A stretch of 34,472 bases of DNA from Sphingobacterium thalpophilum. GTDB taxonomy: Bacteria > Bacteroidota > Bacteroidia > B-17B0 > Aurantibacillaceae. The notes under the pieces were generated by a model. That model was not told the origin of the DNA and ran no database searches. It was given only the letters and a program-made list of their open reading frames with translations. Position numbers and translations under genes: made by a program. The stretch is taken from assembly GCA_943325195.2 (NCBI GenBank), contig CALPON020000016.1, forward strand, positions 1-34,472. Reading direction: 5' to 3'. This document shows, in pieces, positions 8,536 to 34,472 of this stretch. Within the stretch, counting starts at the first letter, position 1. Each line of letters begins with the position of its first letter.

Positions 8536-11500
8536 TTAGTCGACTATAATTTTGCGGAATACCTCACCCGTTTCTCCACTGAGTTTCAGCACATAGATAC
8601 CTGTTGCGAAGGCATCCACTGGTACCTGTGTCAAACCTGGTAAACAATTACCTTTCTGAATCAATTGTCCGGTTAAGCTGAATAACTGATAGGTCAAGGG
8701 CTTTGTTGTTTCGATAAAAAATGTTTGCTGAACAGGATTCGGATAAATCCTGCTGAGTCCCGCTAGTTCAAGCGCATCTGTTCCCGTCGTGTTTAAAAGA
8801 CAAACCACCGTGCTGGTTTCACAAGCCTTGCCATCGCGAACCTGAACCGTATAACAGCCATTTTGTAAATTCATTGCCACACTTCCCGTGCTAACGGCCG
8901 GACTCCAACTGTAGCTATAGACCGGCGTGCCGCCATTTACCTGGACGGTAATACTTCCGTTGTTGCAATTACCACATGTTGGCGATGTCACCGACAGGGA
9001 GTTACTTAAAGCAGCGGGCTCGCTGATACTGAAACTACTTTTACTGCGACATCCTTTTAGATCGCTCACTTGCAAGGTATACAGTCCAGCACATAAATTG
9101 CTGCAAAGCGACTGGCTGCAACCGGCACTCAGACTGTAAGAATAAGGCCAGGTGCCGGAACTGACATTCGCAGTATAACTACCGTTGCAGAGGGACTGAC
9201 AGGTTGCAGCGCTAGTATTCAAACTTACCTGAGGAACTGCCGCTACAATTACAGGTATCGTCGCTGTCTTCGTGCAGCCATTGCTGAAGCCCGTCACAGT
9301 CAAATTAGCAGTATTGGTAAGACTTAGAGTGTAAACAGGTCCGATAAAGCCACCCGACCAGCTGTAAGAGTTGGCGCCACTCACCGACAAAGAGAGGTTT
9401 TGGCCTGCACAAACGGAGGCATTTGCAGGACTGACCGAGAGCGAAATGGCAGGCCAGACATAAATAGCAACACTCTGCGAACGAACGCAGCCGCTATTGG
9501 CGCCAAGAGCCGTGAAGGTAGTATTACTAGCCATTGTCACGGTGTTTTGCTGACCCAAGATGCCACCCGGTAGCCACGTATAGGTGTTGGCACCAAAGAC
9601 GACGAGACTGACTGTTGTGCCTGCACATACCGTTGAATTGGCAGTGCTGGTAATGCTAAGTGAAGGGGGCGCAATAGGTGTGATGTTCAGCGTTGAAGTG
9701 CTCTGACAACTGCCATTTGAGCCCGTGACACCTAATACGATGGCGGAATTTACCACCATCACAAAACTGGCGCTGTTTGCACCCGTAGTCCAAGTATAAT
9801 TTAGCGCTCCACTAGCAGTTAAAAGAACGGTTCCGCCTATGCAGACGCTTGGGGAAGAAATATTGGTCGTCAATACTGGCACGGCATTGACAGTAACGGA
9901 GACCGTTCGGGTGTTACTGCAAAGTCCATTGTAACCCGTCAGTGTATAGGTGGTGGATGTAGAGGGACTGACCGAAATGACCGAATTTGTACTGCCAGTG
10001 CTCCAGCTATAAGTACTCGCGCCGTTGGCCGACAAAGCGACAGATGCGTTTGGACAAATGGAGGCATTGGCCGCCGTGATAGTGGGTGAGATATTGACCG
10101 AAATACTGGCAGTTGCAGTTCCACTGCAGACGCCATTCACACCGCTTACTGTGTAGACAGTGCTGACAGAAGGCGTCACATTATAGAGAGCGCCAATGGC
10201 TACGGACCCTGCACTTGTGCTCCAGGTATAATTAGAGGCACCGCTTGCCAGCAAGCCTACTGCAGTCCCTGAGCAAATGGTGAATGAGCCTGCTGCCACT
10301 GAGGGATAAGAAGAGACAGAGACCGTGCGTGTCAGGCTTACTGAATTGGATCCATTGGCTGCCTGAATTAGAACGGTATAAATACCAGGCGCGGAATAGG
10401 TAACGGTGGCATTGCTGTTTGTTGAACTTGCAGAGGCAGCGCCACTAAAATTCCAAGAGTAAGAAGTGGCGCCCTGGCTGACGTTACTGAAGGATACCGC
10501 GCTGTTCACACACACAGAAGCAGGATGCGTGACCTGCAGAGAGGGGCTTGGAAAGGCGAGATTAATATTATCGAGGTAAATGGGCTGGCCCCAATGACCA
10601 CGGTTCACAAAAGCAAACATGACATTGGTCTGTCCCGCCGTCAATGCCGTAATATCTATACTGTCCCGCCGCCACTGTGTATTGGTGGGTACAAATAAGG
10701 TGGTCAGATCCGAAGCGGTTGAAAGTTGTGTGCCGCCCTTCAAATAAATGCTGCTCCAGCTACTGCCGCAATTAGTGGAGAGTCGGACTTCCAGACTGTC
10801 GCTATACGTGGCATCATAACGCGCATAGGCCACATCAAAACGTAAACGAGCGGAACTCACGTTGCTGAAGGAAAATTTGGGACTCCGCATCTCATCGCGC
10901 TCGTTGGCTGCATTTAAATTAAAATTGTCAAAAATGGCACAGGCCGTGCTGGTTCCAAAACCTCCGAGGCTGGTCCTGCGTGCCCAGAAAATCTGGTCAT
11001 TGTCAATGTTTTTATCAGACCAGTTGGCAGGAAGAAATGCTGCATTTTCAAATCCTTCTACAAATGGCAGCGAAAGTGGGCCCGCCACCGTGATATATGC
11101 CGTCTTTGTCACGACAGCACTGGCGCCAAAAGCATTACTGCAGGTCATAGCCACACTGTAGGTACCAGGACTCGCCCAGCTGACAGAGGGATTACTGGAG
11201 GTAGATGTGGAAGGACTGCCCGATTGAAAAGTCCAGCTCCAAGCTGTTGGCATGTAAAGTGAGCTGTCATTAAATTGCACGGCGGTGAGCGGACAAGTCA
11301 TCCTTGGAAAGGCAGTGAAATTGGCAGCGGGCGGCAGAGCAGAAAAGGTACTCGCACAAAGCATGGCGGCATAGGCATCGATCCGTCCCGCTCCCAACTG
11401 ATTACTGGTCACATACGAAGCATTGCCCGCAAGACTGTAGATGTTGGCTGCGGTTGTGCTGATACAATTAAGCACATTGGCTCGGGTCATAAGGGGACTC

Positions 11501-12672
11501 TTACTCAACATCAGTCCCGCCAGTCCCGCCACCAGTGGCGTCGCCATGCTAGTGCCTGAACTTTGGATGTAAGCCGGTGTGGCACCAGTGTATGGCACGG
11601 TGCTATTGATGTTATCTCCTGGAGCTGAAATGTCGACCCAGGAGCCAAAATTCGAATAAGAGGACTTCACATCCGCGGTATTGACAGCAGAGACACAATA
11701 CACATTGGCATAAGCTCCTGGATAATTTTGGGCGGAAGTATTGGCATTACCTGCCGATGCAAAAACAAGACACCCTTTATTCCAGGCGTAATTTACAATG
11801 GCCTGCTCCGTGGAAGAGGCACCACTGCCACCCCAACTGCAACTGATGATGCGGGCTCTGGCCTTGGCAGCATAAATAATTCCTTCGTAACCATTGGCAA
11901 CAATAGTTGTGCTGCCATTATCGGTCTGACATTTTACAGGAATCATTTTTAAATTCCAGCCAATAGAAGCAATGCCGATACCATTATTCGTGCGCCCCGC
12001 TGCAATACCTGCACAGTGCGTCCCATGGCTCATGCCTGTTTGTGTCGGAACTGGATTGTTATCCCAGTCCGTCGCATCCCAGCCATTGACATCATCCACA
12101 TACCCGTTATTATCGTCATCTACATTATTACCTGCAATCTCTGCCGTGTTGGTATATGTATTTTGAATCAGATCAGCATGGGTCCACATCACCGCATTGT
12201 CAATAATTGCAATCGTTATAGTGGAATTGCCATTAAAAACATTCCAAGCGTTGGCTGCATTTACTTGTGCGAGGTGGATGGGAATGCCTTCGTTTGGAAC
12301 TGCATCCGTTTTCATCAAAGGAACTTTTTCACAGAAACGCACTTCTGTTGTTTTTATTAATTCTTCTTCCAGCGCAGTAACTTGCCAAATGGCATTGAAT
12401 TCTAATTTCAGTACATAGGGTAACAGGGCATCGTCTGAGGCTTCTGCAAAGGGTCGCGTAATCCGTGTGATCTGGTAGGTAGAAATTAGCCGTGATAAAA
12501 AAGGAAAGTCGGCCGCACGCAGTTTGCGTGGATTTATACCCATGCAGTTTTTTATAGCAGCGGGATTAACTTGAACATATAGCTGACCATCCCTAAAAGC
12601 AGAGAAAACGCTCTGAGCAGACACTTGGCCGAGCGAACTAATAAACAGAAACAGAAATATAATTTTTCTCAT
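8536..12672 (-). CDS. S8 subtilisin-like peptidase with PKD domain, Ig/PKD-like repeats and T9SS type A sorting domain
   Basis: Likely start MRKIIFLFLFISSLGQVSAQ at 12672; triad regions IAIIDNAV (D), GMSHGTHCAGIAAG (H), GTSMATPLVAGLAG (S); C-terminal IYPNPVQQTFFIETT...GIYVLKLSGETGEVFRKIIVD. Confidence 0.9.
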   Translation of the reverse strand: MRKIIFLFLFISSLGQVSAQSVFSAFRDGQLYVQVNPAAIKNCMGINPRKLRAADFPFLSRLISTYQITRITRPFAEASDDALLPYVLKLEFNAIWQVTALEEELIKTTEVRFCEKVPLMKTDAVPNEGIPIHLAQVNAANAWNVFNGNSTITIAIIDNAVMWTHADLIQNTYTNTAEIAGNNVDDDNNGYVDDVNGWDATDWDNNPVPTQTGMSHGTHCAGIAAGRTNNGIGIASIGWNLKMIPVKCQTDNGSTTIVANGYEGIIYAAKARARIISCSWGGSGASSTEQAIVNYAWNKGCLVFASAGNANTSAQNYPGAYANVYCVSAVNTADVKSSYSNFGSWVDISAPGDNINSTVPYTGATPAYIQSSGTSMATPLVAGLAGLMLSKSPLMTRANVLNCISTTAANIYSLAGNASYVTSNQLGAGRIDAYAAMLCASTFSALPPAANFTAFPRMTCPLTAVQFNDSSLYMPTAWSWTFQSGSPSTSTSSNPSVSWASPGTYSVAMTCSNAFGASAVVTKTAYITVAGPLSLPFVEGFENAAFLPANWSDKNIDNDQIFWARRTSLGGFGTSTACAIFDNFNLNAANERDEMRSPKFSFSNVSSARLRFDVAYARYDATYSDSLEVRLSTNCGSSWSSIYLKGGTQLSTASDLTTLFVPTNTQWRRDSIDITALTAGQTNVMFAFVNRGHWGQPIYLDNINLAFPSPSLQVTHPASVCVNSAVSFSNVSQGATSYSWNFSGAASASSTNSNATVTYSAPGIYTVLIQAANGSNSVSLTRTVSVSSYPSVAAGSFTICSGTAVGLLASGASNYTWSTSAGSVAIGALYNVTPSVSTVYTVSGVNGVCSGTATASISVNISPTITAANASICPNASVALSANGASTYSWSTGSTNSVISVSPSTSTTYTLTGYNGLCSNTRTVSVTVNAVPVLTTNISSPSVCIGGTVLLTASGALNYTWTTGANSASFVMVVNSAIVLGVTGSNGSCQSTSTLNITPIAPPSLSITSTANSTVCAGTTVSLVVFGANTYTWLPGGILGQQNTVTMASNTTFTALGANSGCVRSQSVAIYVWPAISLSVSPANASVCAGQNLSLSVSGANSYSWSGGFIGPVYTLSLTNTANLTVTGFSNGCTKTATIPVIVAAVPQVSLNTSAATCQSLCNGSYTANVSSGTWPYSYSLSAGCSQSLCSNLCAGLYTLQVSDLKGCRSKSSFSISEPAALSNSLSVTSPTCGNCNNGSITVQVNGGTPVYSYSWSPAVSTGSVAMNLQNGCYTVQVRDGKACETSTVVCLLNTTGTDALELAGLSRIYPNPVQQTFFIETTKPLTYQLFSLTGQLIQKGNCLPGLTQVPVDAFATGIYVLKLSGETGEVFRKIIVD

Positions 12673-12979
12673 GTGAGTCGGAACCATAAAGATAGTATAA
12701 ATGCGCATTTTTACGACAAACGGCTGCAATTTAAAACGGGTCTTAAAAAACTTAAGAAAAGTACTTTTAGAGCAGCAGCAAGGATGGCAGCGCGCTATCC
12801 AAAAAACATCCGAAAATTTTTGTGTATGACCATTTTTTTTTACCTTGGAAGTAGAGGGGCGAAGGATGTGTCTTTAAATAGACCTCTTAGTCCACCAGTC
12901 AGATAAAAAGACGTCGAAAGGACCTTCGTGCTGCTTTTTTATTGATTATATTTAGAGGCTGCAAAGCTTGTTTTAATGT

Positions 12980-15129: not shown

Positions 15130-17373
15130 TTAATTAATGGGGCGTCCGAGGAAATCTACCATGATTAAATCCTCCAGCGTATAACGTTTACCTCCAATAA
15201 AGGCAATAATCCACGCATCTTTCAAGCCACGCGCAATGAGTTTCTGACGATTTTTTTCAGCGACATTCAAGGTGATAAATTCGTTTTGAATAAACCGGGT
15301 GAGACTGTCGGGATAGGTTTCCGAAGTAATTTTCCCTAGATCCTTAAGCTTATCTGTTTTAAATTTTGCGGGATGTTTATAAGCACCAATCTGCACCGTG
15401 TAACGAATATTGGCTGCGCAATAATTACCCATGCGATCGAGCAAGACCTTGTATACTTCCTCGTCATTGAGCGATTTACCTTTAATATCGCTTAGATTGC
15501 CAAGGACCGAACTGCAGTTTTCGCTTTTAGGTTCCGTCATATCCTTCTTAACAGGCGCAGACGCGCTGTTTTTCTTTTTCTCCGCGCCCTTTTTAGCCGT
15601 TACCATTAGGGGATCAGGTTCTATTGCCTTTACCTCTTCTTTCATTCGCTCAGGAGCCAGCGTCGGTGTTGCAGTCGCAACTTTTTCCGGTTCTGGTGAA
15701 CTAGTCGAGCTTGCTGCTATAGTTGCTGTTGGTACAATAGTTGCTGTTTTTGCGAGAGTGGGACTTGGCACAATGGTCGCTGTGTACAGGTAAAAGTCCT
15801 TTACTTTTTCTAGATAAGTCCCCAGCTTTTCGATATCAAATTCTTCAGAAACAGATGTAAAACCATCCGCACTGACTTCCAATTGATAGTTGAATCCCGG
15901 TTTGAGAACCGTCAGGTATTTTCCATTTTCAGACTGTACATTAAAAGCAGTCAATTTTTCAGTGGTCCCCACTTTCTTTATTTCAATTTTTGCTGCAATT
16001 GGTTTGTCATTTCCATAAACAACACCCTTTAATAAGGCTACTACTGGCTTTTCACCTAAAATACCGGGTGTCACCATGTAGATGTCCAGATCACCTTGGG
16101 CGCCTTTCGCATCCCGTCCACTGCTAAAAAAACCTTTATCTCCTTTTGAATTGATTACGTAATAACTATCATCTTCGACGGTATTCAGGGGAATTCCCAT
16201 ACTCCGCGGGACCATCCAGTCAGTTCCTTCCTTAATTGTATACATAATGTCATAGCCACCGATGCTGAGATGACCCTGCGAACTAAAGAATAAAGTAATG
16301 CCATCGGTATGAATAAAAGGGGCATCGTCGTCGTACTTCGTGTTTATTTTCGGTCCCAGATTTACAGCGGGACCCCAGTCTCCGTTGAGCAATTCACTGA
16401 CATAGAGATCGCGCCCGCCAAAGCCACCGGCACGACTGCTGGCAAAGTACAATTGTTTACCATCTGCCGAAATTGAACAGGAGCCTTCCCATTCGTCCGG
16501 TGTATTAATATTCGCATTCAGGGGCACTGGCTGACCAAATTCGCTTCCTTTTAGTTTACTGACATAAATATCCCCTTCATTTTTATTATCGCTTCGAAAG
16601 GTAAAAAGAGTGTTTCCGTCTGGTGACAAGGCGATTACGGCATCATTCCCGATACTGTTTAGACTCTTCATCGGTTCTGGCTTTGTCCATTTAGTTCCGC
16701 TGCTGTCTTTACGACTAAAATAAATATCAGATAATAGTAAGCCCTTAGGGTCTGATTGTAGGGAAGTATTTACCCGTCCGCCTGTACTTTTTTCACCCAC
16801 ATAGGTAAAAATCATGAGTGATTCATCCGCCGTAATTACCGGCACACCTTCTATTTCTGGTGTATTCACCGGACCGCCAATATTCTCTATCTCCGCAATG
16901 ACTTTGTTGCTGGTCAGTGTTTTACCATTGTCGCAGTTCATAAGGGTTACTTCCACAAGACTTAATAATTCCTTGTCTTCGCGTTTTTTACTACTGCTTA
17001 AAAGTTCAACGAGGGGACGTAGTGTTTTGATTGCCTCGTCGAACTTGTAATTGCGATGGTATGCAAATCCCAGGTAGGCTTCGACCTCCAATGTCGCATA
17101 ATTGGTCTTTAGATTTTTAAACAATTCAATGGCACGAATCTTTTTAGCGGGATAGTTCAGGCAGCAATAGCCCAGATTAAATTGATAGAGCATCTCCTGA
17201 GGATAACGGGCGCATAAATTATCAAACGCATCATAGGCCTTCACGTAGTTATGGGCTTCTAAGTAGCCATAAGCCTGTTCTTCAAGAACAGCGCGGGTTT
17301 GAGCTTTACTACTGATAGCAAAAAACAACAGAGAAAGAGCCAGTAGTAGATTTCTGTTTAACTTCATGATCAT
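15130..17373 (-). CDS. TPR plus PD40 (WD40-like) protein with Thr/Pro-rich linker and SPOR-like C-terminal region
   Basis: N-terminal TPR-like helices; PD40 motifs (ALSPDGNTLFTFRSD, ISADGKQLYFASSRAGGFGGRDLYVSE); linker TATIVPSPTLAKTATIVPTATIAASS; C-terminal RYTVQIGAYKHPAKF. Confidence 0.75.
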   Translation of the reverse strand: MIMKLNRNLLLALSLLFFAISSKAQTRAVLEEQAYGYLEAHNYVKAYDAFDNLCARYPQEMLYQFNLGYCCLNYPAKKIRAIELFKNLKTNYATLEVEAYLGFAYHRNYKFDEAIKTLRPLVELLSSSKKREDKELLSLVEVTLMNCDNGKTLTSNKVIAEIENIGGPVNTPEIEGVPVITADESLMIFTYVGEKSTGGRVNTSLQSDPKGLLLSDIYFSRKDSSGTKWTKPEPMKSLNSIGNDAVIALSPDGNTLFTFRSDNKNEGDIYVSKLKGSEFGQPVPLNANINTPDEWEGSCSISADGKQLYFASSRAGGFGGRDLYVSELLNGDWGPAVNLGPKINTKYDDDAPFIHTDGITLFFSSQGHLSIGGYDIMYTIKEGTDWMVPRSMGIPLNTVEDDSYYVINSKGDKGFFSSGRDAKGAQGDLDIYMVTPGILGEKPVVALLKGVVYGNDKPIAAKIEIKKVGTTEKLTAFNVQSENGKYLTVLKPGFNYQLEVSADGFTSVSEEFDIEKLGTYLEKVKDFYLYTATIVPSPTLAKTATIVPTATIAASSTSSPEPEKVATATPTLAPERMKEEVKAIEPDPLMVTAKKGAEKKKNSASAPVKKDMTEPKSENCSSVLGNLSDIKGKSLNDEEVYKVLLDRMGNYCAANIRYTVQIGAYKHPAKFKTDKLKDLGKITSETYPDSLTRFIQNEFITLNVAEKNRQKLIARGLKDAWIIAFIGGKRYTLEDLIMVDFLGRPIN

Positions 17374-23655: not shown

Positions 23656-25752
23656 ATGCTGGACACGCCAATCGAATATCTTAAAACAATTGGACCCCAA
23701 AGGGCCGAGGTGTTGAAGAAAGACCTGAACATTTTTGTGTACAGAGACCTGCTCCTGCACTTTCCCTATCGCTATGTAGATCGCAGTCGCATTATCAGTG
23801 TGCGCGACATCCACGACGACCTTCCCTTTGTGCAATTACAAGGTGTCATCGACAGCATCGAAATTGTGGGAACCAAGCAAGCGAAGCGCCTGGTTGTTAT
23901 TTTCAGGGATCGCACCGGGGTCATCGAGTTGGTTTGGTTTAAAGGTTATAACTGGATGGCTCAAAAATTACAATTAGGCATTGAGTACCTTGTCTTTGGA
24001 AAAGCCTCAGTCTTTAACGGCCGCTTTAATTTAGCGCACCCAGAAATCGAGGTGATAACGCCGCAGCTCCTGTCGGAACTCTCGGCCATGCAACCGGTGT
24101 ACAATACCTCGGAAAAAATGAAATTAAGAGGAATGGACAGTGAAGGCATTCGCAAAGCCCAAAAACAGCTCTTCCTTCAGCTTCAACCACAGCATCTCAG
24201 CGAGAATCAAAGTGATGAGGTCATGGCGCAGTATCGCCTGCTTCCGCGTTTTGAAGCCTTTCAGACGATTCATTTTCCCGATAGTCCAGCTCATCTTTTA
24301 AAAGCAGAATTTCGTATTAAATTCGACGAATTATTTTATGTGCAACTCCGTCTTCTGCGACTCAACAAGGTCCGCAACCGCGATGTGGAAGGCTTTGTGT
24401 TTAAGAAAGTGGGCCCACTCTTCAATGATTTTTATGCAGAGCACCTGCCGTTTCAACTAACCGGGGCGCAGAAAAGAGTGATTAAGGAGATTCGTCAAGA
24501 TACGGGTTCGGGACATCAGATGAGTCGCCTGGTTCAGGGGGATGTCGGGAGCGGAAAAACCCTAGTGGCCTTGATGACTATGCTGCTGGCCCTGGACAAT
24601 GGCTTTCAGACCTGTCTGATGGCCCCCACCGAAATCCTTGCGCAACAACATTATCAGACATTTCAAGACCTTTTAAACCCTTTAGGCCTGCAGATTGCCC
24701 TGCTGACTGGCTCTGTAAAGGCGAAGGCCAGAAAAGTGATTCACCGGGACCTTCTGAGTGGCGACCTAAAAATACTGATTGGAACACATGCCTTGATTGA
24801 AGATAGTGTGCAGTTCCAAAACTTGGGGCTGGTGGTCATTGATGAACAGCATCGCTTTGGCGTGGCTCAGAGAGCGCGGCTGCGGGCGAAAAATACGACC
24901 GCCCCGCATATGTTGATTATGACGGCTACACCCATTCCTCGCACCCTGGCAATGACGCTATACGGCGATCTGGATACAAGTGTCATTGATGAATTACCTC
25001 CCGGCCGAAAACCTATAAAGACTATGCATTTCACCGAAAGCCAGCGCTTAAGGGTTTATGGTTTTATGCGTGAACAAATTGCCCTCGGTCGTCAGGTCTA
25101 TATTGTTTATCCACTCATCACCGAAAGTGAAAAAATGGATTATCAGAATCTTCAGCAGGGTTACGATCACATTATTACCGAATTCCCGCCGCCGCACTAC
25201 CAAGTGAGTATCGTACATGGTCAACTGCAGAACGAGCAAAAAGAATTTGAAATGCAGCGCTTCATCCGCCGGGAAACGCAGGTGATGGTGGCTACGACCG
25301 TGATTGAAGTAGGGGTGAATGTGCCCAATGCCAGTGTGATGATTATTGAAAGTGCCGAACGCTTTGGCTTAAGTCAGCTGCATCAATTGCGTGGACGGGT
25401 AGGGCGGGGGGCTGATCAGAGCTTTTGTATATTAATGACCGGTTTGAAGCTGGGCGCTGACAGCCGCTTGCGCATGGAAACCATGGTCCGGACCAACGAT
25501 GGTTTTGAAATCAGTGAGGTCGACCTCAAGTTAAGGGGACCCGGCGATCTAGAAGGCACCCAACAAAGCGGGGTCACGGATCTGCGACTGGCAAATCTGG
25601 CAGAGGATGGTCAGATTTTAATGATGGCCCGGCAGGCGGCACAAACTATTCTAGAAAGGGATATGGACTTAATTCTCCCCGAAAACAAAGTTTATCAAGA
25701 GGAACTCCGCAGCCTTCAGAATAACCGCCCAAATTGGAGCAAAATTGGCTAA
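23656..25752 (+). CDS. recG: ATP-dependent DNA helicase RecG
   Basis: Wedge-domain start TPIEYLKTIGPQRAEVLKKDLNI; RLVQGDVGSGKTLVALMTMLLA; DEQHRFG; TATPIPRTLAMTLYGDLDTSVIDELPPGRKPI; RGRVGRG. Confidence 0.97.
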   Translation: MLDTPIEYLKTIGPQRAEVLKKDLNIFVYRDLLLHFPYRYVDRSRIISVRDIHDDLPFVQLQGVIDSIEIVGTKQAKRLVVIFRDRTGVIELVWFKGYNWMAQKLQLGIEYLVFGKASVFNGRFNLAHPEIEVITPQLLSELSAMQPVYNTSEKMKLRGMDSEGIRKAQKQLFLQLQPQHLSENQSDEVMAQYRLLPRFEAFQTIHFPDSPAHLLKAEFRIKFDELFYVQLRLLRLNKVRNRDVEGFVFKKVGPLFNDFYAEHLPFQLTGAQKRVIKEIRQDTGSGHQMSRLVQGDVGSGKTLVALMTMLLALDNGFQTCLMAPTEILAQQHYQTFQDLLNPLGLQIALLTGSVKAKARKVIHRDLLSGDLKILIGTHALIEDSVQFQNLGLVVIDEQHRFGVAQRARLRAKNTTAPHMLIMTATPIPRTLAMTLYGDLDTSVIDELPPGRKPIKTMHFTESQRLRVYGFMREQIALGRQVYIVYPLITESEKMDYQNLQQGYDHIITEFPPPHYQVSIVHGQLQNEQKEFEMQRFIRRETQVMVATTVIEVGVNVPNASVMIIESAERFGLSQLHQLRGRVGRGADQSFCILMTGLKLGADSRLRMETMVRTNDGFEISEVDLKLRGPGDLEGTQQSGVTDLRLANLAEDGQILMMARQAAQTILERDMDLILPENKVYQEELRSLQNNRPNWSKIG

Positions 25753-26157
25753 TTTCAGGTAGTCAGCCACTTAGCACCTCTTTTATGTTCGGGTTTTCTA
25801 GCTGAACAAGTGCTACGATATATTTCTCTACCCTGTGCGCGGTGACACTTATTTTTTTTATATTTGCTAGCCACTTCGAAACTAATTCTGATAATTTAGC
25901 GCATTTTTTATTTTTATTTATAGCTGTTAGTGTTATTATCTCAATTGAATGGGGTTTACCCTTTTCCTAGTGATTGGAGTGAGTAGGATTTTTATGAGAA
26001 TTATTTTAAAAATTTGTTTAGAAAAGATTCGCCTATCGGTAGTAGGCCCCGCACTTGTGTATTTCAGCGAAAAAGAGGTCCGCAGTTCTCCTTTGCCTCT
26101 GGTAACGAATACCTTCGGCTTGTGCAGTGAGCATACTCTTAAAGTAGTACCTTTATA

Positions 26158-26547
26158 ATGAAGTATTTATCTACTCTTATTATCAGCGAAATACCAATAT
26201 ATGCCTTTTCGCAAACAGCATCGGTCATCCGTTACAGCGGTGCCGAGCGGGAGCAATTCGGAAAAGCGGATTGCCTCAGCGGCATAGCCAAGAGGAATCC
26301 ATTCGTGTTTAATTCTTTCATAGTCAATGTTCCTCAGAAGAATGCGAATACCGGCAGCAAGTTGCAGGTGCCAGGCAGATTACCCCGAACAGCAAGGCTG
26401 AATTTAGCAGCGAATCGTCTGGATAATACCTCAAAAACAGGTTGTTTTTACTGCTCAACTGCCCTCCAAAATAAGGCAAATTTATGGATTGGGGCAGCGG
26501 GACTTAGTGACATTGCCGTGTACGTGCGCGCTGGCCATCCAAGCTGA
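26158..26547 (+). pseudogene. Possible relic or short homologue of a fibre-like secreted protein
   Basis: Signal-peptide-like MKYLSTLIISEIPIYAFSQT; SGIAKRNPFVFNSFIVNVPQK...NTGSKLQVPG aligns with TGIASVTAVGNNSFLVNVPAP...NSGAVQIIG of the downstream 797-aa protein. Confidence 0.35.
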
Positions 26548-26634
26548 ATCAGATTTGAGTAAGCCTGATAATGGTTGAAGTATCGAAGAAGATAAAATGA
26601 ATTAACTAATTGATAATTAAAACAGAGAGAACCG

Positions 26635-29028
26635 ATGAAAATTAAAATTACTTTATTGCTGTTATTTTTGGCTTCCCTTGTCTTTGGACAGGCGCCAAAA
26701 TTAATTAACTATCAGGGGATTGTTCGCGGTACTGATGGAGCCCCAACTATTAACCAGCCTATCAGTATCCGTTTTCAGATTTTGAAAGGTTCTCCAACTG
26801 GCACCCTGGTGTATACGGAGCTACAGTCATTGACGACTAATTCCCTCGGACTCATACAGACACAGATTGGGCTTTCTGCCAATCTAGGCAGCGTGGTGTG
26901 GAATGCAGCACAACTGTATCTGGAAGTAGCCATGGATATTACTGGCGGCAGCAATCTTTCAATTCTGGGAACGCAGCAAATTATGGGTGTACCTTACAGT
27001 TTTCTTGCAAATAACGTCCCCGCAGCCTATTCCCCTACAACCAACATTCTCAGTGTAGGGGAGAATACTTTTCAACTCTCTAGCCCTCCCCCCACCAGTA
27101 TGACTGCTACCGGCATTGCCAGTGTGACCGCAGTGGGTAATAATTCGTTTCTAGTGAATGTCCCTGCGCCTAGTTTTACCAATTCAGGTGCGGTGCAAAT
27201 CATCGGCACCTATCCTAATTACACAGTGGCTGCCGATAGTCCGACTATTACCGGCACTGGCAACGCGATTGTGACCACGCCTGTCACCAATTCCTTCGTG
27301 GTGGATGTCCCCTTTATGCAAATCACCACTACCAGCAGTGCGGGCCTCTCCGGCGTAAGCGGATCGGGAACCAATAGCGTGAATATTAATATTCCAGCGC
27401 CCACGCTTACAGGCTTGGGTGCGGTAACGATTGCGACCTCAACGGTTGCAAATACTTTCAGTATTACCGTGCCGCAAACCAGCATCGCCTTAACACAAAC
27501 TGGAACAACAGCGGGTTTAACATCCACCAGCCTCAATGACTTTACCCTCAATATACCAACACCTAGCATTAGTGCAGCGGGACTCGCCACTGTGTCAACA
27601 AATGGCGCTAGTTTCAGTGTCGGCGTGGCGCCTTTTACATATGTCAACACCACAGGAGTTTTGAGCTCCGGTCCAAATGCAGTTGTCGTGGCGCCCTTAC
27701 TGACTTTTAATAATGGTACCATCACTTCCGGTCCTGCTTCCAATTCTATCAGTCTTTCTTCCCTGACACCGTGGCTGCAGGGCGTGAATACGGTCACCCT
27801 CGCCAATAGCACCGACCGGGTTGGAATTGGTGCATCCGCTCCGACAGAAAACCTGCAAGTAGAATCGGCAGGCAATAGCAGTATTTCCATCTTATCCGGC
27901 GCATCTAATATCTCGGATTTAGGATTTGGAACAACTGCCAATCATGGTTTGGGACGACTCCGGTATGATAACACAACCGGATCTTTAGCCTTCTGGACCG
28001 CCGCAGCCCTTCGTGCGACATTAACCAACACGGGACAATTAGTAATTGGAATCGCTCCTTCTTATTCTTCCACAACCGGTTTAACAATTGGACGTCCAGG
28101 GGCCTTTAATAATCAAGTGATGATCACAGGTGGAGACAACAGTAACCTTTTTGGTGGCCTTCTCAGTCTCGGTGAAAATCTAAATCCAAGTTCTGGCTTT
28201 TCAATAAAATTAGATGCTGCTGGCAATCGTCTGCAAATCACCAATGACCTGGCTGGCAATTCGCCAATTGCAGCATTTGGAGGTTATGCTGGTTCCAGCA
28301 ATGGAATGGTAATTGGGTCTTCTTACGCCCCAGGAACCCAGGCGCCTGCAGAGGGCTTGGCAGTTCAGGGTTTTGTCGGAATCGGACTCAGTAGTCCAGC
28401 CGCCGCCCTCCATGTGAATGGTAACAGCATCATCACTGGCAGCACCTTGATTGGTGGAAATGCCTCCATTGTGGGCAGCGCCTCCGTCACAGGAAATGCG
28501 ACCATCACAGGCAATCACACTAATTTGGGGCAAACATTTGCAAATGGCAATGTGTTTGTGGGCACCAGTGCCACAGCACCTGCAGATGTCAGAGTGTTTG
28601 GCGGCGTGAAGATGGGGACAGAACTTGGCACAACGCAGGCACCCTACTATCCTGGTGGAAATGGCATGATTTACAGACGTGTTAACAGTACCGCATTTAA
28701 TTCGGTCGTTACACTGGCCCGTACAGCGGATATTACTTTTGAAACAGAAGCAACTACGGGAGGCATTCAAGTTACACGATCTACTGGTAATATCAATCAA
28801 ATCTGCCATTGTTCCGGAGTAAATGCCGCTGGTGTGACCGTTAATAAGATTTTCAACAATATTATTATTGGTACAACTCAGGTGTATAGTGCGACTGATA
28901 ATATTTTGTATTTCCGCTGTATCTTTGGTGATGTTTTTTCCAACGGACACATGACCGAAATAACGGTTAGCCGTTTTCCCGGCGATTACTACTGGATTGG
29001 ACATTTGATTTCAACTTTTAATCAATAA
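26635..29028 (+). CDS. Fibre/adhesin-like secreted protein with tandem repeats
   Basis: Signal peptide; Bacteroidota surface-protein N-terminus APKLINYQGIVRGTDGAPTINQPISIRFQIL; repeats ending NSFxVxVPxP; later NGNSIITGSTLIGGNASIVGSASVTGNATITGN; no recognisable T9SS CTD. Confidence 0.75.
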   Translation: MKIKITLLLLFLASLVFGQAPKLINYQGIVRGTDGAPTINQPISIRFQILKGSPTGTLVYTELQSLTTNSLGLIQTQIGLSANLGSVVWNAAQLYLEVAMDITGGSNLSILGTQQIMGVPYSFLANNVPAAYSPTTNILSVGENTFQLSSPPPTSMTATGIASVTAVGNNSFLVNVPAPSFTNSGAVQIIGTYPNYTVAADSPTITGTGNAIVTTPVTNSFVVDVPFMQITTTSSAGLSGVSGSGTNSVNINIPAPTLTGLGAVTIATSTVANTFSITVPQTSIALTQTGTTAGLTSTSLNDFTLNIPTPSISAAGLATVSTNGASFSVGVAPFTYVNTTGVLSSGPNAVVVAPLLTFNNGTITSGPASNSISLSSLTPWLQGVNTVTLANSTDRVGIGASAPTENLQVESAGNSSISILSGASNISDLGFGTTANHGLGRLRYDNTTGSLAFWTAAALRATLTNTGQLVIGIAPSYSSTTGLTIGRPGAFNNQVMITGGDNSNLFGGLLSLGENLNPSSGFSIKLDAAGNRLQITNDLAGNSPIAAFGGYAGSSNGMVIGSSYAPGTQAPAEGLAVQGFVGIGLSSPAAALHVNGNSIITGSTLIGGNASIVGSASVTGNATITGNHTNLGQTFANGNVFVGTSATAPADVRVFGGVKMGTELGTTQAPYYPGGNGMIYRRVNSTAFNSVVTLARTADITFETEATTGGIQVTRSTGNINQICHCSGVNAAGVTVNKIFNNIIIGTTQVYSATDNILYFRCIFGDVFSNGHMTEITVSRFPGDYYWIGHLISTFNQ
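27103..27758 (+). repeat. Protein-level tandem repeat region of about 25 aa units inside the fibre gene
   Basis: Units such as TATGIASVTAVGNNSFLVNVPAPSF, TGTGNAIVTTPVTNSFVVDVPFMQI, TGLGAVTIATSTVANTFSITVPQTSI; divergent at DNA level. Confidence 0.7.
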
Positions 29029-29029
29029 C

Positions 29030-29842
29030 ATGAGGTTTTTTAAACTGCTTTCCAGCTTGACGGTGTTTTTTTTCTGTCTGAGTGCGAGAGCACAGGTCAG
29101 TCCTACTATTTCGCCAAATGTTCTGAATGCTGGGGGTGGCCATCGCGCTATTGGCACTTCCGGGTACTGGCTGACCGACAATGTGGGAGAACCTTTTACC
29201 GCTTCCTTAGGCCTAGGTACTCTCAATTATATGATCACCCAGGGCTTTCTTCAACCGGAAATTGTTAGTCCCGGTGGTTTCAGCGTCACCTCTCTTTATC
29301 AGGATATTCAGTGCCTAGACAAAGCAGATGATGCCTTTATCGCCTTGACCTTAACGACTACTGTAGGTAAATACCGTGCGAAATACCTATGGACGCCCGC
29401 ATCGGTTTGTCCTGATAATACGTGTGACCGCATCGACACATTGAAAGCCGGCTCCTACAGCGTTAAAGTGGCCATTGACTATACTACCAATGCAGGCGTC
29501 GCTAAATTAGATACCGTTCGTCTCGCCTTTACTATCCGCAACGCCACGCAACCATGCATCGTCAAGCCCTTTAGCGGTATAAGTCCAAATAATGATGGAA
29601 CGAATGATATTTTTACGATTGAAAATATTAAAGAATTTCCCAAGAACCATGTAAGCATATTTAACCGATGGGGGAATTTGGTATTTGATGTAGATGGCTA
29701 TGATATGGCGAAAGAAGGAAAGAACTGGCCTGATGCAGATGCACTCGATAAATTGCCTTCGAGTACCTATTTTTATATTATTCAATTGAATGATGGTGTT
29801 GGCTCCATTATTAAGGGTTGGGTGGAACTTATAAAAAACTAA
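29030..29842 (+). CDS. Small secreted protein with gliding-motility-associated (T9SS type B) C-terminal domain
   Basis: Signal peptide; ISPNNDGTNDIFTIENIKEFPKNHVSIFNRWGNLVFDVDGY...STYFYIIQLNDGVGSIIKGWVELIKN. Confidence 0.9.
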   Translation: MRFFKLLSSLTVFFFCLSARAQVSPTISPNVLNAGGGHRAIGTSGYWLTDNVGEPFTASLGLGTLNYMITQGFLQPEIVSPGGFSVTSLYQDIQCLDKADDAFIALTLTTTVGKYRAKYLWTPASVCPDNTCDRIDTLKAGSYSVKVAIDYTTNAGVAKLDTVRLAFTIRNATQPCIVKPFSGISPNNDGTNDIFTIENIKEFPKNHVSIFNRWGNLVFDVDGYDMAKEGKNWPDADALDKLPSSTYFYIIQLNDGVGSIIKGWVELIKN

Positions 29843-29845
29843 ACG

Positions 29846-30766
29846 ATGAATAAATTTTTGCGAATTACATTCTGTTTTGTTCTTGCAAGTTCCCTGCATG
29901 CGCAGCAGGATCCCCAATATAGCCTTTACCAGTTTAATCAGATGATTATTAATCCTGCCTATGCTGGTTCACGTGATAATTTAAGTGCGGTTGCTGCCAA
30001 CCGTCAGCAATGGGTCGGCTTCGATGGGGCACCTAAAACGACCTGCCTGAGTCTGCATGGTCCCGTCTTGCGAAAAAATTTAGGATTGGGCCTCACCCTG
30101 GTAAATGATATCATGGGACCACGCAATGTGACGAGTATATACGGGAATGTGGCGTATTTACTCAAGATCAGCAGCACTGCAAAGCTCTCCTTCGGACTGA
30201 ATGCCGGTTATAATCGCTATCAGTTCAATTTTGCCAAGATTGACTGGAATGTTTCTGAAGCTCCAAGCCAGTTCTTTAGTAATCAGACCACAGGAGCACT
30301 GGACATTAATGGGGGCGTGTATTTTAGAACACCTTCTTTTTTTCTTGGCGTCAGTGCTTCGCATTTGAATAATCCTACCGTCTACACTTATCAGGCGTTA
30401 TCTAACAATCAGTTTTCTTATCGTCTACGCACCCATTTATTTGTTAGTGCTGGCTATTCTCATCAGATCAACGATAACATCCTTTTTGCTCCAACCGCAC
30501 TTTTGAAGTTTGTGGACGGAACATTTAATGCAGATTTGAACATCAACTTTTTTGTCCACAAAGTATTTTGGGTTGGCGCCTTTTATAGAATGGGCTTTGG
30601 TCCCGGCCTCTTAACGCAGTATTGCATCAGTAAGAAGTTACGGATTGGCTTATCCTACGATACAGGTCTGCAGGCAGCCACAAGATTAGGCTCCAGCTTT
30701 GAAGCGATGTTTGGTTATGATTTTGGTGGCAGTAAGGCAAAAATGATTAATCCACGTTTTTTATAA
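29846..30766 (+). CDS. PorP/SprF family type IX secretion system membrane protein
   Basis: QQDPQYSLYQFNQMIINPAYAGSRDNLSAVAANRQQWVGFDGAPKTTCLSLHGPV is diagnostic of PorP/SprF. Confidence 0.93.
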   Translation: MNKFLRITFCFVLASSLHAQQDPQYSLYQFNQMIINPAYAGSRDNLSAVAANRQQWVGFDGAPKTTCLSLHGPVLRKNLGLGLTLVNDIMGPRNVTSIYGNVAYLLKISSTAKLSFGLNAGYNRYQFNFAKIDWNVSEAPSQFFSNQTTGALDINGGVYFRTPSFFLGVSASHLNNPTVYTYQALSNNQFSYRLRTHLFVSAGYSHQINDNILFAPTALLKFVDGTFNADLNINFFVHKVFWVGAFYRMGFGPGLLTQYCISKKLRIGLSYDTGLQAATRLGSSFEAMFGYDFGGSKAKMINPRFL

Positions 30767-30769
30767 ACT

Positions 30770-33490
30770 ATGGCAAAGATACTTAGAACGCTTGTCCTCT
30801 GTGCTTTGCTAACTTTTGTGGCAGGAGCTGCTGCACAAAAATCGCACGCGGATAAACTTTTTGACCGGGGTGCCTATTTTGAAGCGCTCCCCATATACAA
30901 AAAGGAGGCGAAAAATAAATCACCTGAACGCAGCCAGCATGCGCTCCTGAGGTTAGGCGAGTGCTATAAAGCGCTGTATGACTTCACCATGGCAGAAGTT
31001 TCCTACGCAAAAGCGCTGGAATTATCGCCTGAGATTCCGTCAGAGGTTTATCTGAAGTATGCTCAGATTCTAAAAATCAATGATAAATATGATCTCGCTG
31101 CAGAACAGTATTCGGCGTATTTGAAATTAAATCCGAAAGATCAGGCCGCCAGAAGGGCCAAGCGTTTTTGTACAGAAATTCAGACCAACATGAATCGTCC
31201 GGTTGAATACACCGTTACAAACGTACAGGCGATCAATACCAGTAATTCCGAATTTTCACCATACGTTTTCAAGAATAAATTATTATTCATTGCCGAACGT
31301 GCCCGCTTCGATTTTACTGGTTATGAGCGGAATGACTATAATGGCCAACCCTACCTAAATCTCTATGAAGCCCCTATTCAGGGGAATGTTGTAAAAAAGG
31401 AAAAACCATTTTCAAATGCTGTTAACTCTGAATATCATGACGGACCCGGCTGCCTCAGTGCTGATGGCACTACTTTATATTTTACGCGGGTGAGCTATGT
31501 TAACAAACGTAATTTTGTTAATCAGTCAAAGATTTACACGGCTGCCGGTACTGCAAAAAGTTGGAAAAAAATCAAACCGCTGGAATTGAGCAGTGACGAT
31601 TATTCCATTGCTCATCCTAGTATTAGCCAGGACAATAACACCCTCTATTTTACCAGTGATATGCCTGGTGGGTTTGGAGGTAAAGATATTTGGATGTGCA
31701 AACGGGAAGGCGATGGCTGGGAGGCTCCAATAAACCTGGGTCCCGATGTTAATACAACAGGCGATGAAATGTTTCCTTCCATTCGTCAGGATGGGGTTTT
31801 GTTTTTTAGTTCCGATGGATTGCCTGGTTATGGCGGTTTAGATGTTTTCAGTGCCCGTAAACTGGAAGGAAAATGGGTAATCGACCGAAATGAAGGACCC
31901 GGTATCAACAGTCGCTCAGACGATTTTGGAATTACTTTTCTGAATGACAGCACTGGTTATTTTTCCTCCAATCGCTTGGGTGGTAAGGGTAGTGATGATA
32001 TTTACAACTACCGATTCCATGCAAAAAAGCTGACTTCAGTTGACGGTACAGTACTCTTGAGTGAAAACATTGCCGATAAGGCAAAACAAAAAAAGGTGCT
32101 CCTACTCGATGAAAAAGGAAAGGTGTTGGATAGTACCTTCACCAATCAGAAAGGTTATTTTGAATTCCGAAACCTTGATCCAGATAAAAAATACATGACC
32201 TCCATTGAAGAGTCGGATCCTAGTTTGCAAAGTAAAGCCCGCTTCTATCTTGCCGCAAAGGACTCTACCATCCAAAGGGTCAGTGGAAAGTTTGAAGGCA
32301 ACCGTTTCGTATTTAAAAACCTACCTTATGAGCCTGGCGCCCTGCCTGAACTTACGCCAGACGGTAACCTTGTTCTATCAGGAACTGTATCTCAGGATGG
32401 AAAGAAACCGCTAAAAAACTTGAAGGTAAAGCTGGTTAACGAATTAGGGGAGGTGATGGAAGAAACAACCACCAATGAAAATGGTTCCTTTGCCTTTAGA
32501 AATATTCCAAGTGATAAGAATTATGTCGTTTCCATTGAGGAAGGGGATATTCAATTACCGGAAGGAACCAAGATTGTGCTCAGCAACCGTGCAGGTAAAG
32601 AAATCCGTTCCTTTTATAAAGCAAAGGAAAAGTTTGTCTTTAAAATTCTGGCGGCGGATAAAGCAGTGATTGAGGAAATGGAGTTGGAGGAAATGAGCCT
32701 TGCCATGGGTCTATACGGGTACATGTACGATCAGGATAAAAAACCGCTCGCTAACATTAGAGTAAAGGTCAAAGAAGAGAATGGGGGCGAGGAGGTCGAA
32801 TGGGTTACCGCGGACAATGGTAAGTTCACTTTCAAGAATCTCTCCACAGAAAAGAAATATATTTTTTCCGCAGATGAAAAGGATCCGCATCTAAAAGGTG
32901 TTCGCAAGATTTTTATTGCTGATGCCAAGGGACGTGTTTATAAAGTTGTGGAATTAGGTGTTAATGGAAAGTTTGAATTCAAAATTCTTGAAATCGATAA
33001 AAGTAGCATGGGTGAATTCGAGGTGAGTGATCCGTGGTTAAAACTCGGTGAATTGAAAAACGGCCGAAAGAAACCGCTGAAAGTAACCAAGGGCAAAGAG
33101 GAGGATGGAGAAAGCGAATTTGAAATGAGCATTACCATCGTTGAGAATATCCATTATCCCTTCGGCTCTTGGGAGCTTGATGAAGACGCTCGTGCTATTT
33201 TAGACAAGGCGGCGGATGCAATGAAGGATTATCCAAAACTCTTGATGGAAATTTCTTCGCATACCGACAGTCAATCCACCAACGAATTCAACTTGATGCT
33301 TTCCAACAAACGTGCACAGCGAGCAGTTGATTATGTTGTCAGCCGAGGCGTCGACCGAAAACGTCTGAAAGGTAAAGGGTATGGCGAAGCCAAATTATTA
33401 AATAATTGTGCAGATGGCGTTGATTGCACCGATGCAGAGCACATGGTTAACCGCCGTACTGAATTCAAGATCACCAAGCCAAGCAAATAA
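30770..33490 (+). CDS. TPR-PD40-carboxypeptidase-regulatory-like repeats-OmpA family protein
   Basis: TPR N-terminus; PD40 ISQDNNTLYFTSDMPGGFGGKDIWM; three KPLxNxxVKxxxxxGE...NGxFxFxN units; OmpA-like ISSHTDSQSTNEFNLMLSNKRAQRAVDYVVSRGVDRKRLKGKGYGE. Confidence 0.92.
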   Translation: MAKILRTLVLCALLTFVAGAAAQKSHADKLFDRGAYFEALPIYKKEAKNKSPERSQHALLRLGECYKALYDFTMAEVSYAKALELSPEIPSEVYLKYAQILKINDKYDLAAEQYSAYLKLNPKDQAARRAKRFCTEIQTNMNRPVEYTVTNVQAINTSNSEFSPYVFKNKLLFIAERARFDFTGYERNDYNGQPYLNLYEAPIQGNVVKKEKPFSNAVNSEYHDGPGCLSADGTTLYFTRVSYVNKRNFVNQSKIYTAAGTAKSWKKIKPLELSSDDYSIAHPSISQDNNTLYFTSDMPGGFGGKDIWMCKREGDGWEAPINLGPDVNTTGDEMFPSIRQDGVLFFSSDGLPGYGGLDVFSARKLEGKWVIDRNEGPGINSRSDDFGITFLNDSTGYFSSNRLGGKGSDDIYNYRFHAKKLTSVDGTVLLSENIADKAKQKKVLLLDEKGKVLDSTFTNQKGYFEFRNLDPDKKYMTSIEESDPSLQSKARFYLAAKDSTIQRVSGKFEGNRFVFKNLPYEPGALPELTPDGNLVLSGTVSQDGKKPLKNLKVKLVNELGEVMEETTTNENGSFAFRNIPSDKNYVVSIEEGDIQLPEGTKIVLSNRAGKEIRSFYKAKEKFVFKILAADKAVIEEMELEEMSLAMGLYGYMYDQDKKPLANIRVKVKEENGGEEVEWVTADNGKFTFKNLSTEKKYIFSADEKDPHLKGVRKIFIADAKGRVYKVVELGVNGKFEFKILEIDKSSMGEFEVSDPWLKLGELKNGRKKPLKVTKGKEEDGESEFEMSITIVENIHYPFGSWELDEDARAILDKAADAMKDYPKLLMEISSHTDSQSTNEFNLMLSNKRAQRAVDYVVSRGVDRKRLKGKGYGEAKLLNNCADGVDCTDAEHMVNRRTEFKITKPSK

Positions 33491-33493
33491 TTT

Positions 33494-34472
33494 ATGAATA
33501 TTGTGCTGATTGACGATGAACAGAACTGGAAAAACTTACTCCCGTTCTGCTTTACGCGTCCCGTTTCCGAAATCCGAATCGGAATTCTAAACCTTCGGGA
33601 AAAATGGGAAACACTCCTTCAGGCCTCCTGCTCTTATCAAACACAGCTTTACCTGAGTCAAAAGTATGCACTTAAAGAAACAACTAATCAGATTGTTATT
33701 GCCTCCAATCTCTGCGCAGACCGTTCTCTTGCAAAAGTAATAAAGGCACTGCAGCCCGGTGAAGCCTTGTATTGGGGGGACCGCTTATTGGCCCTCAGGG
33801 GTTCAGTGGCAGATTTTCAGTCCGCACGGTTTCTAAAGAAAGTAGTCTTGACAGAAAAGGTTTTGATGCTTGAACAGGTTTATGATATCTTTCAAAAAAA
33901 TGCGGAGGCCTTAGCAGCAGATTACGAATCACTTACCACCGGACGGAGCTCGCAACCGCTTAGTCCTTCCGTTACCGTTGTTGGTAGCAGAGATTTAATT
34001 TTTCTGGAAGCAGGTGCTAAAGCTGAAGCCTGTGTTTTGAATACAACTGCTGGTCCGGTTTACATCGGAAAAGAGGCGGAGATAATGGAAGGTGCACTGG
34101 TAAGAGGACCCTTTGCTTTGTGCGAGCATAGTACATTAAAATTAGGCGCAAAGGTATACGGAGCCAGCACGGTAGGGCCACATAGCAAAGTAGGAGGGGA
34201 GCTGAGTAACAGTGTTATTTTCGGCTATAGTAATAAGGCACACGATGGTTTTCTGGGAAATTCTGTCCTTGGCGAATGGTGTAACCTTGGTGCAGACACC
34301 AATAACAGTAATCTGAAAAACAATTACGGTCCTGTAAAACTTTATAACTACGCGATGGGAAAATCGCTTAATACAGGACTTCAATTTTGCGGACTGATGA
34401 TGGGCGATCACTCCAAAGCGGGGATCAATACCATGTTTAATACAGGCACAGTGGTCGGCGTTGGCTGTAATA
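33494..34472 (+). CDS. GlmU-like sugar nucleotidyltransferase/left-handed beta-helix protein, 3' truncated by window
   Basis: ORF open to the window end (absent from the track): MNIVLIDDEQNWKNLLPFCFTRPVSEIRIGILNLREKWE ... GPVYIGKEAEIMEGALVRGPFALCEHSTLKLGAKVYGASTVGPHSKVGGE. Confidence 0.85.
   Translation, partial: MNIVLIDDEQNWKNLLPFCFTRPVSEIRIGILNLREKWETLLQASCSYQTQLYLSQKYALKETTNQIVIASNLCADRSLAKVIKALQPGEALYWGDRLLALRGSVADFQSARFLKKVVLTEKVLMLEQVYDIFQKNAEALAADYESLTTGRSSQPLSPSVTVVGSRDLIFLEAGAKAEACVLNTTAGPVYIGKEAEIMEGALVRGPFALCEHSTLKLGAKVYGASTVGPHSKVGGELSNSVIFGYSNKAHDGFLGNSVLGEWCNLGADTNNSNLKNNYGPVKLYNYAMGKSLNTGLQFCGLMMGDHSKAGINTMFNTGTVVGVGCN

Follow-up and report, generated by a model that had tools for sequence, protein, structure and literature searches.

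Introduction

For T9SS-dependent display, proteins with a type B CTD rely on a shuttle of the PorP/SprF family, whereas those with type A CTDs use PorV (PMC12618676, PMC9143113). The PorE-PorP-PG1035 system of Porphyromonas gingivalis combines a type B CTD protein, a PorP barrel and a TPR/PD40/OmpA protein; PG1035, whose function is unknown, is this species' sole type B CTD protein, and no fibre appears in that report (PMC9143113). In the published work the type B CTD binds PorP, PorP binds PorE and PorE binds peptidoglycan; the PorE-PorP-CTD-B complex was found bound to peptidoglycan and, in F. johnsoniae, the PorE-linked Fjoh_3952 is static (PMC9143113, PMC12618676). The Fjoh_3952/3951/3950 genes and other PorE-linked type B operons bring a CTD-B substrate, a PorP/SprF protein and a PorE homologue together in one operon for a static surface complex (PMC12618676). 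The SprB adhesin is likewise held at the surface by a carrier of the PorP/SprF family, SprF, whose C-tail CxC joins the gliding track (PMC12635249). A different group of surface structures, the mosaic adhesive trimer (MAT) fibres of Bdellovibrio, consists of a signal peptide, a conserved beta domain, a long shaft and exchangeable tips that include S74 and C1q/TNF-like folds; according to the authors, an as yet unidentified component of the surface must be bound by the N-domain (PMC10769870).

Here we describe a locus from Sphingobacterium thalpophilum that has features of both groups. The window, that is the whole stretch of DNA analysed, comprises 34,472 nt (contig CALPON020000016.1, GCA_943325195.2, positions 1 to 34,472, forward strand). 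Unlike the Fjoh_3952 operons, whose CTD-B substrate is at the same time the putative adhesin, the locus encodes the adhesin as a separate fibre that has no CTD. It differs from SprB/SprF in that SprB has its own CTD and SprF has a CxC tail, which is missing from the PorP of the window. The fibre is only a distant sequence match to the Bdellovibrio MAT fibres, and a gene for a partner with a T9SS CTD lies next to it, whereas no surface partner is known there. At this locus an adhesive surface fibre appears to be built in two pieces, a fibre without an export or anchor tag and a small secreted partner. We found no description of such a pair in the open-access literature.

Results

Gene order of the locus and its conservation

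Four genes follow each other on the plus strand with gaps of 1, 3 and 3 nt. The first encodes the fibre, a protein of 797 aa with a signal peptide and no CTD (26635..29028), and is conserved upstream of the second gene in relatives. This second gene encodes a small T9SS type B CTD protein of 270 aa, the proposed fibre anchor (29030..29842). It is followed by the gene for a PorP/SprF-family outer-membrane barrel of 306 aa, the carrier of the type B CTD (29846..30766), and by the gene for a PorE-like TPR-PD40-CarboxypepD-OmpA protein of 906 aa, the proposed peptidoglycan anchor (30770..33490). A preliminary description had recognised this packed arrangement and assigned all four identities from the letters of the sequence, and both were borne out by the list of open reading frames and the domain scans. 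The run does not end with these four genes. After a further gap of 3 nt it continues into a glmU-type UDP-GlcNAc gene on the same strand (33494..34471, running past the window end; TIGR03991, 357 bits), so that it contains at least five genes. The glmU-type gene is probably co-transcribed with the cassette and is not part of the display module. On the left, recG (RecG domains; 23656..25752, plus strand) served as the synteny marker by which the absence of the fibre and small genes from relatives was shown. The interval between recG and the fibre gene (25753-26634, about 880 bp) contains an ORF of 129 aa (26158-26547) with no relatives in the libraries searched; this region is possibly a remnant or a leader sequence.

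Sixty relatives were searched with the small protein, and flanks of up to about 20 kb were read around each match. Throughout the genus the order was one or more fibre genes, the small CTD-B gene, an optional gene for a second CTD-B protein, porP, the OmpA gene and, although not everywhere, glmU. Loci from three other families of the class (L059, L060 and L061) had the order fibre, small protein, PorP and OmpA protein, without glmU. As the order is shared by over 25 relatives and by three further families, chance is excluded, and the fibre, which the preliminary description had singled out as the gene on whose co-conservation the proposal depended, was conserved together with the other three.

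The fibre combines a constant N-domain with an exchangeable tip

Pfam and NCBIfam scans of the fibre revealed no Pfam domain and no CTD. Its sole annotated similarity was to Bdello_MAT_N (NF053851), which matched residues 9-83 with 28.8 bits (E 9e-7), below the curated cut-off of 60. On the tests made, the window fibre is thus related to the MAT family and is not formally a member of it. The alignment of 40 fibres and the structure model delimited an N-terminal domain of about 110-130 residues just after the signal peptide (about residues 20-125 in the window fibre; 26692..27009, plus strand), with invariant positions Q-P-I-Y-Q-R-G-P. It was predicted to be all-beta, with a mean pLDDT of 86. 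Bdello_MAT_N was matched by 31 of the 40 fibres (best E 4e-12). Foldseek with the model of this MAT_N-type domain returned only a weak match to the neck of phage XM1 (E 2e-4, TM 0.41), and sequence searches against solved structures gave nothing useful.

The remainder of the fibre varied. Similarity was detectable between the N-domains of 753 of 780 fibre pairs, and between the C-terminal 150 aa of only 129 of 780; the tips fell into 12 clusters. The tandem fibres of one relative (L053) were 88% identical in the N-domain and carried unrelated tips. The tip of the window fibre (about residues 641-797; 28555..29025, plus strand) resembled the tip of a single fibre (L035, 46% identity), the other tips in the genus being unrelated. 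Constant N-domains with mosaic tips are the plan described for Bdellovibrio MAT fibres. Modules recognised in the 40 fibres included collagen (2), S74 (1) and C1q (1), which suggests that the fibres form trimers, and several fibres matched phage tail-fibre PHROGs. An origin as a phage tail fibre was rejected, as there was no phage match, the recG-glmU synteny is chromosomal and the PHROG matches of relatives reflect shared shaft modules. A trimeric autotransporter (type Vc) was rejected as well, since Pfam detected no YadA-type C-terminal anchor in the 40 fibres.

The small protein joins a conserved N-terminal domain to a T9SS sorting signal

An alignment of 32 homologues resolved the small protein into a signal peptide, a conserved domain, an Ig/SprB-like domain and a type B CTD. 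The CTD occupies residues 182-268 (29573..29833, plus strand; CHU_C 83.5 bits, TIGR04131 54.3 bits). With a signal peptide and C-terminal CHU_C and TIGR04131 matches that both score above cut-off, the protein has the features by which T9SS type B substrates are defined. The Ig-like/SprB-like domain (29279..29539, plus strand) contained a SprB repeat in 16 of the 32 homologues and was modelled as a confident beta domain; Foldseek with the small-protein model returned general Ig-like matches only. Two giant proteins of relatives (3,300-4,600 aa; L063 and L064) matched the Ig-like domain and CTD-B of the small protein at their C-termini and did not contain the first domain.

This first domain (about residues 24-80; 29099..29269, plus strand), delimited from an alignment, is the candidate docking domain. 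It spans ~55 residues with the pattern ...GE...TQGFLQP, has no Pfam or NCBIfam model, and is named TQGF here. The domain was modelled with a pLDDT of about 50 when alone, despite its conservation, and the rest of the protein reached about 90. Such a low-confidence model fits a domain that folds on its partner, without proving so. The same behaviour would be expected of an assembly factor or terminal subunit, with the small protein acting as a chaperone, a trimerisation cap or a tip rather than as an anchor at the base. We consider this very unlikely: in the fibre it is the N-terminal base that is constant, the tips vary while the TQGF domain is conserved, and a tip factor with a CTD would hold the fibre by the wrong end.

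Fibre and small protein adjoin each other across the phylum

The search with the small protein does not presuppose a fibre and is free of the training bias of the TQGF model. Of the 32 homologous loci, 25 had a MAT_N fibre gene directly before the small gene, counting one (L050) in which an ORF of 124 aa separates the two. Six of the other seven loci end at a contig or stretch edge, and the last (L061) has the N-domain three ORFs upstream. Among the 60 relatives, all 49 genomes with a TQGF match had MAT_N, and one genome (G035) had MAT_N only, at a contig end. When coordinates alone were used, 68 of 81 cases lay within 6.5 kb, a figure that understates the pairing: six of the 13 non-adjacent cases stood beside an open, fibre-sized ORF running off the contig or stretch end, at least four were no more than about 400 bases from a contig end, and three were solitary TQGF genes (L230, L231 and L232). 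The genome of the window itself encodes SprA, PorV and 11 PorP copies, and contains only one MAT_N and one TQGF gene, adjacent to each other.

We then examined 148 genomes that sample the Bacteroidota evenly. The TQGF model gave 25 matches, 24 of which adjoined a MAT_N fibre, although this model was trained on members that neighbour fibres and is biased towards such matches. MAT_N was present in 19/19 genomes with TQGF compared with 45/148 overall (p=6e-12). Starting instead from the fibre side, with 85 MAT_N ORFs (loci L145-L223), an immediate neighbour with a small CTD or TQGF was found for 54/85 fibres versus 12/307 other ORFs (p=2e-32). Partners missed by the TQGF model were often recognisable diverged forms (GTIGQPVIG...QGFW). 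For 26 of the 85 fibres, several of them with weak MAT_N scores, there was no detectable partner within two genes; some of these partners may be encoded in trans or be too diverged. A CTD of its own was found in 1/85 MAT_N fibres of the phylum set and in 0/104 and 0/40 fibres of two further sets. The single exception, an ORF of 1823 aa (L197) with a type A CTD match, nevertheless lies directly downstream of a small CTD-A gene.

The pair was seen in Chitinophaga, Flavihumibacter, Aureispira, Phaeodactylibacter, Cyclobacteriaceae and Bacteroidales MAGs, among others. The CTD-less fibre beside a tiny CTD protein, which had been regarded as the oddity of this locus, is therefore a recurrent arrangement in many Bacteroidota families. 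The TQGF proteins next to phylum MAT_N fibres are often 155-225 aa long. Three TQGF proteins of 260-269 aa (L106, L128 and L141) had no recognised CTD; two of them contain dockerin-type repeats and directly adjoin a MAT_N fibre. Their sequences point to a possible third way of anchoring.

PorP accompanies type B but not type A partners

Among 45 small proteins scanned, 38 matched the model for a type A CTD and 7 that for a type B CTD (E 0.01), with a small overlap. Elsewhere in the phylum, the usual form of the pair is one with a type A CTD and without PorP or OmpA protein. A PorP gene was found within three genes in 31/34 loci with a type B partner and in 0/83 loci with a type A partner; two of the three type B exceptions lie at a locus edge. 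This correlation matches what is predicted from the use of PorP/SprF and PorV by the two CTD types, and indicates that the conserved element is a T9SS-delivered TQGF protein next to a CTD-less fibre.

The PorP of the window, encoded next to the CTD-B gene, scored above cut-off with both PF11751 (217 bits) and TIGR03519 (230 bits). A CxC motif was found neither in its C-tail nor in the PorP tails printed for window-like loci. A gliding adhesin of the SprB type was rejected on these grounds, and with a PorP that lacks the CxC tail a static mount is expected. In much of the genus, a second CTD-B protein of 737-939 aa is encoded between the small protein and PorP (L037:9841-12054, with FG-GAP repeats; equivalents in L040-L047, L049-L052, L054, L056 and L058). 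It is absent from the window and probably shares the same PorP carrier. Another large T9SS-secreted protein of the window is a protease, a subtilase with PKD domains, a SprB repeat and a type A CTD (8536-12729, minus strand).

The OmpA protein has the TPR-PD40-OmpA domain order of PorE and matched NF052230 with 358 bits, compared with a cut-off of 600. It differs from P. gingivalis PorE in having extra carboxypeptidase-regulatory repeats and no lipobox, the Cys being absent at the signal peptide in the window sequence and in relatives. By these features it is classified as PorE-like and not as PorE. The genome contains many PD40/OmpA paralogues, and a PD40 protein of 747 aa encoded in the window (15130-17373, minus strand) is 35% identical to part of the OmpA protein of the cassette.

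Fibre and small gene are missing together

Two relatives of the same genus (G004 and G005) have recG, about 200 bp and then porP, ompA and glmU, the fibre and the small gene both being absent. A third genome of the genus (G024) is organised in the same way and also lacks both genes, but its porP-ompA region is broken and diverged. The outgroup families have all four genes, so that joint loss is the simpler reading. It is preferred over independent gain by parsimony only, as the position of G004/G005 in a PorP+OmpA tree had a support of 0.44 and the base of the genus was not resolved. The fibre and the small protein are therefore one unit, and PorP-OmpA is a separable base.

These absences also bear on whether the small protein acts independently of the fibre, as a separate T9SS adhesin or a plug that caps PorP in the manner of PG1035, with the fibre displayed on its own and the genes merely co-regulated. 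PG1035 has been proposed as a PorP cap (PMC9143113), and PorP-OmpA does occur without the fibre and small gene. However, the two genes are absent jointly while PorP stays, all but one of the TQGF matches in the phylum adjoin a fibre, and in the 83 type A loci without a nearby PorP the small protein still adjoins a MAT_N fibre. We therefore regard a plug as improbable.

Discussion

Collectively, the comparative data make it likely that the small TQGF-CTD protein, secreted by the T9SS, anchors a CTD-less and probably trimeric fibre at the surface, and that PorP and the PD40-OmpA protein here fix this anchor to the wall. The fibre would be an adhesin exported by Sec, in which the MAT_N base is constant, the shaft and tip can be exchanged and a membrane anchor is lacking. 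Its base would be docked by the TQGF domain of the small protein, whose type B CTD would leave the cell through the T9SS translocon and then be retained on the surface by its cognate PorP barrel. The TPR-PD40-OmpA protein would in turn tie PorP to peptidoglycan, resulting in a static mount. The steps from CTD to cell wall follow contacts taken from the literature; the binding of TQGF to MAT_N, the trimerisation of the fibre and its route over the outer membrane are what we infer here. The preliminary description had proposed the same roles for the small protein, PorP and the OmpA protein, and these roles still account best for the comparative evidence; its closed four-part cassette did not hold, as three relatives keep PorP-OmpA without the fibre and small gene.

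The fibre could cross the outer membrane either together with its anchor, through the T9SS, or separately, to be captured afterwards. The first route leads to an alternative in which the small protein is above all an export carrier: the fibre would bind it in the periplasm and piggyback through the T9SS, with surface retention being secondary. Several observations agree with this. Every partner has a CTD and the fibre has none; a CTD of either type, A or B, can be used, so that it is the status of T9SS substrate that is conserved; and one partner often adjoins, and would serve, 2-4 tandem fibres. Conversely, we found no precedent of piggyback export by the T9SS in the open-access literature, and the cargo, a folded trimer of >2,000 residues, would be very large. 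To our knowledge, moreover, the MAT fibres of Bdellovibrio are on the surface without a T9SS, so that export may not require the anchor. A carrier role is possible, and we hold it to be rather unlikely as the main function. Returning to the surface anchor, a wider proposal is that TQGF, fused to either type of T9SS signal, captures and possibly co-exports CTD-less MAT-type fibres in an undescribed two-component display system found across the phylum; on the sequence comparisons made here, we consider the case for and against this generalisation to be evenly balanced.

With this pairing, the Bacteroidota offer a concrete candidate for the surface partner of the MAT N-domain, and a class of small T9SS proteins in which only the CTD is annotated receives a proposed function. 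To the CTD-B/PorP/PorE anchoring already known, the locus adds an adhesin that is separate and has no CTD. If the proposal is true, T9SS substrates act as adaptors for proteins that have no CTD, and inventories of T9SS-dependent surface proteins based on the CTD are incomplete. One secreted adaptor would then display many exchangeable adhesins.
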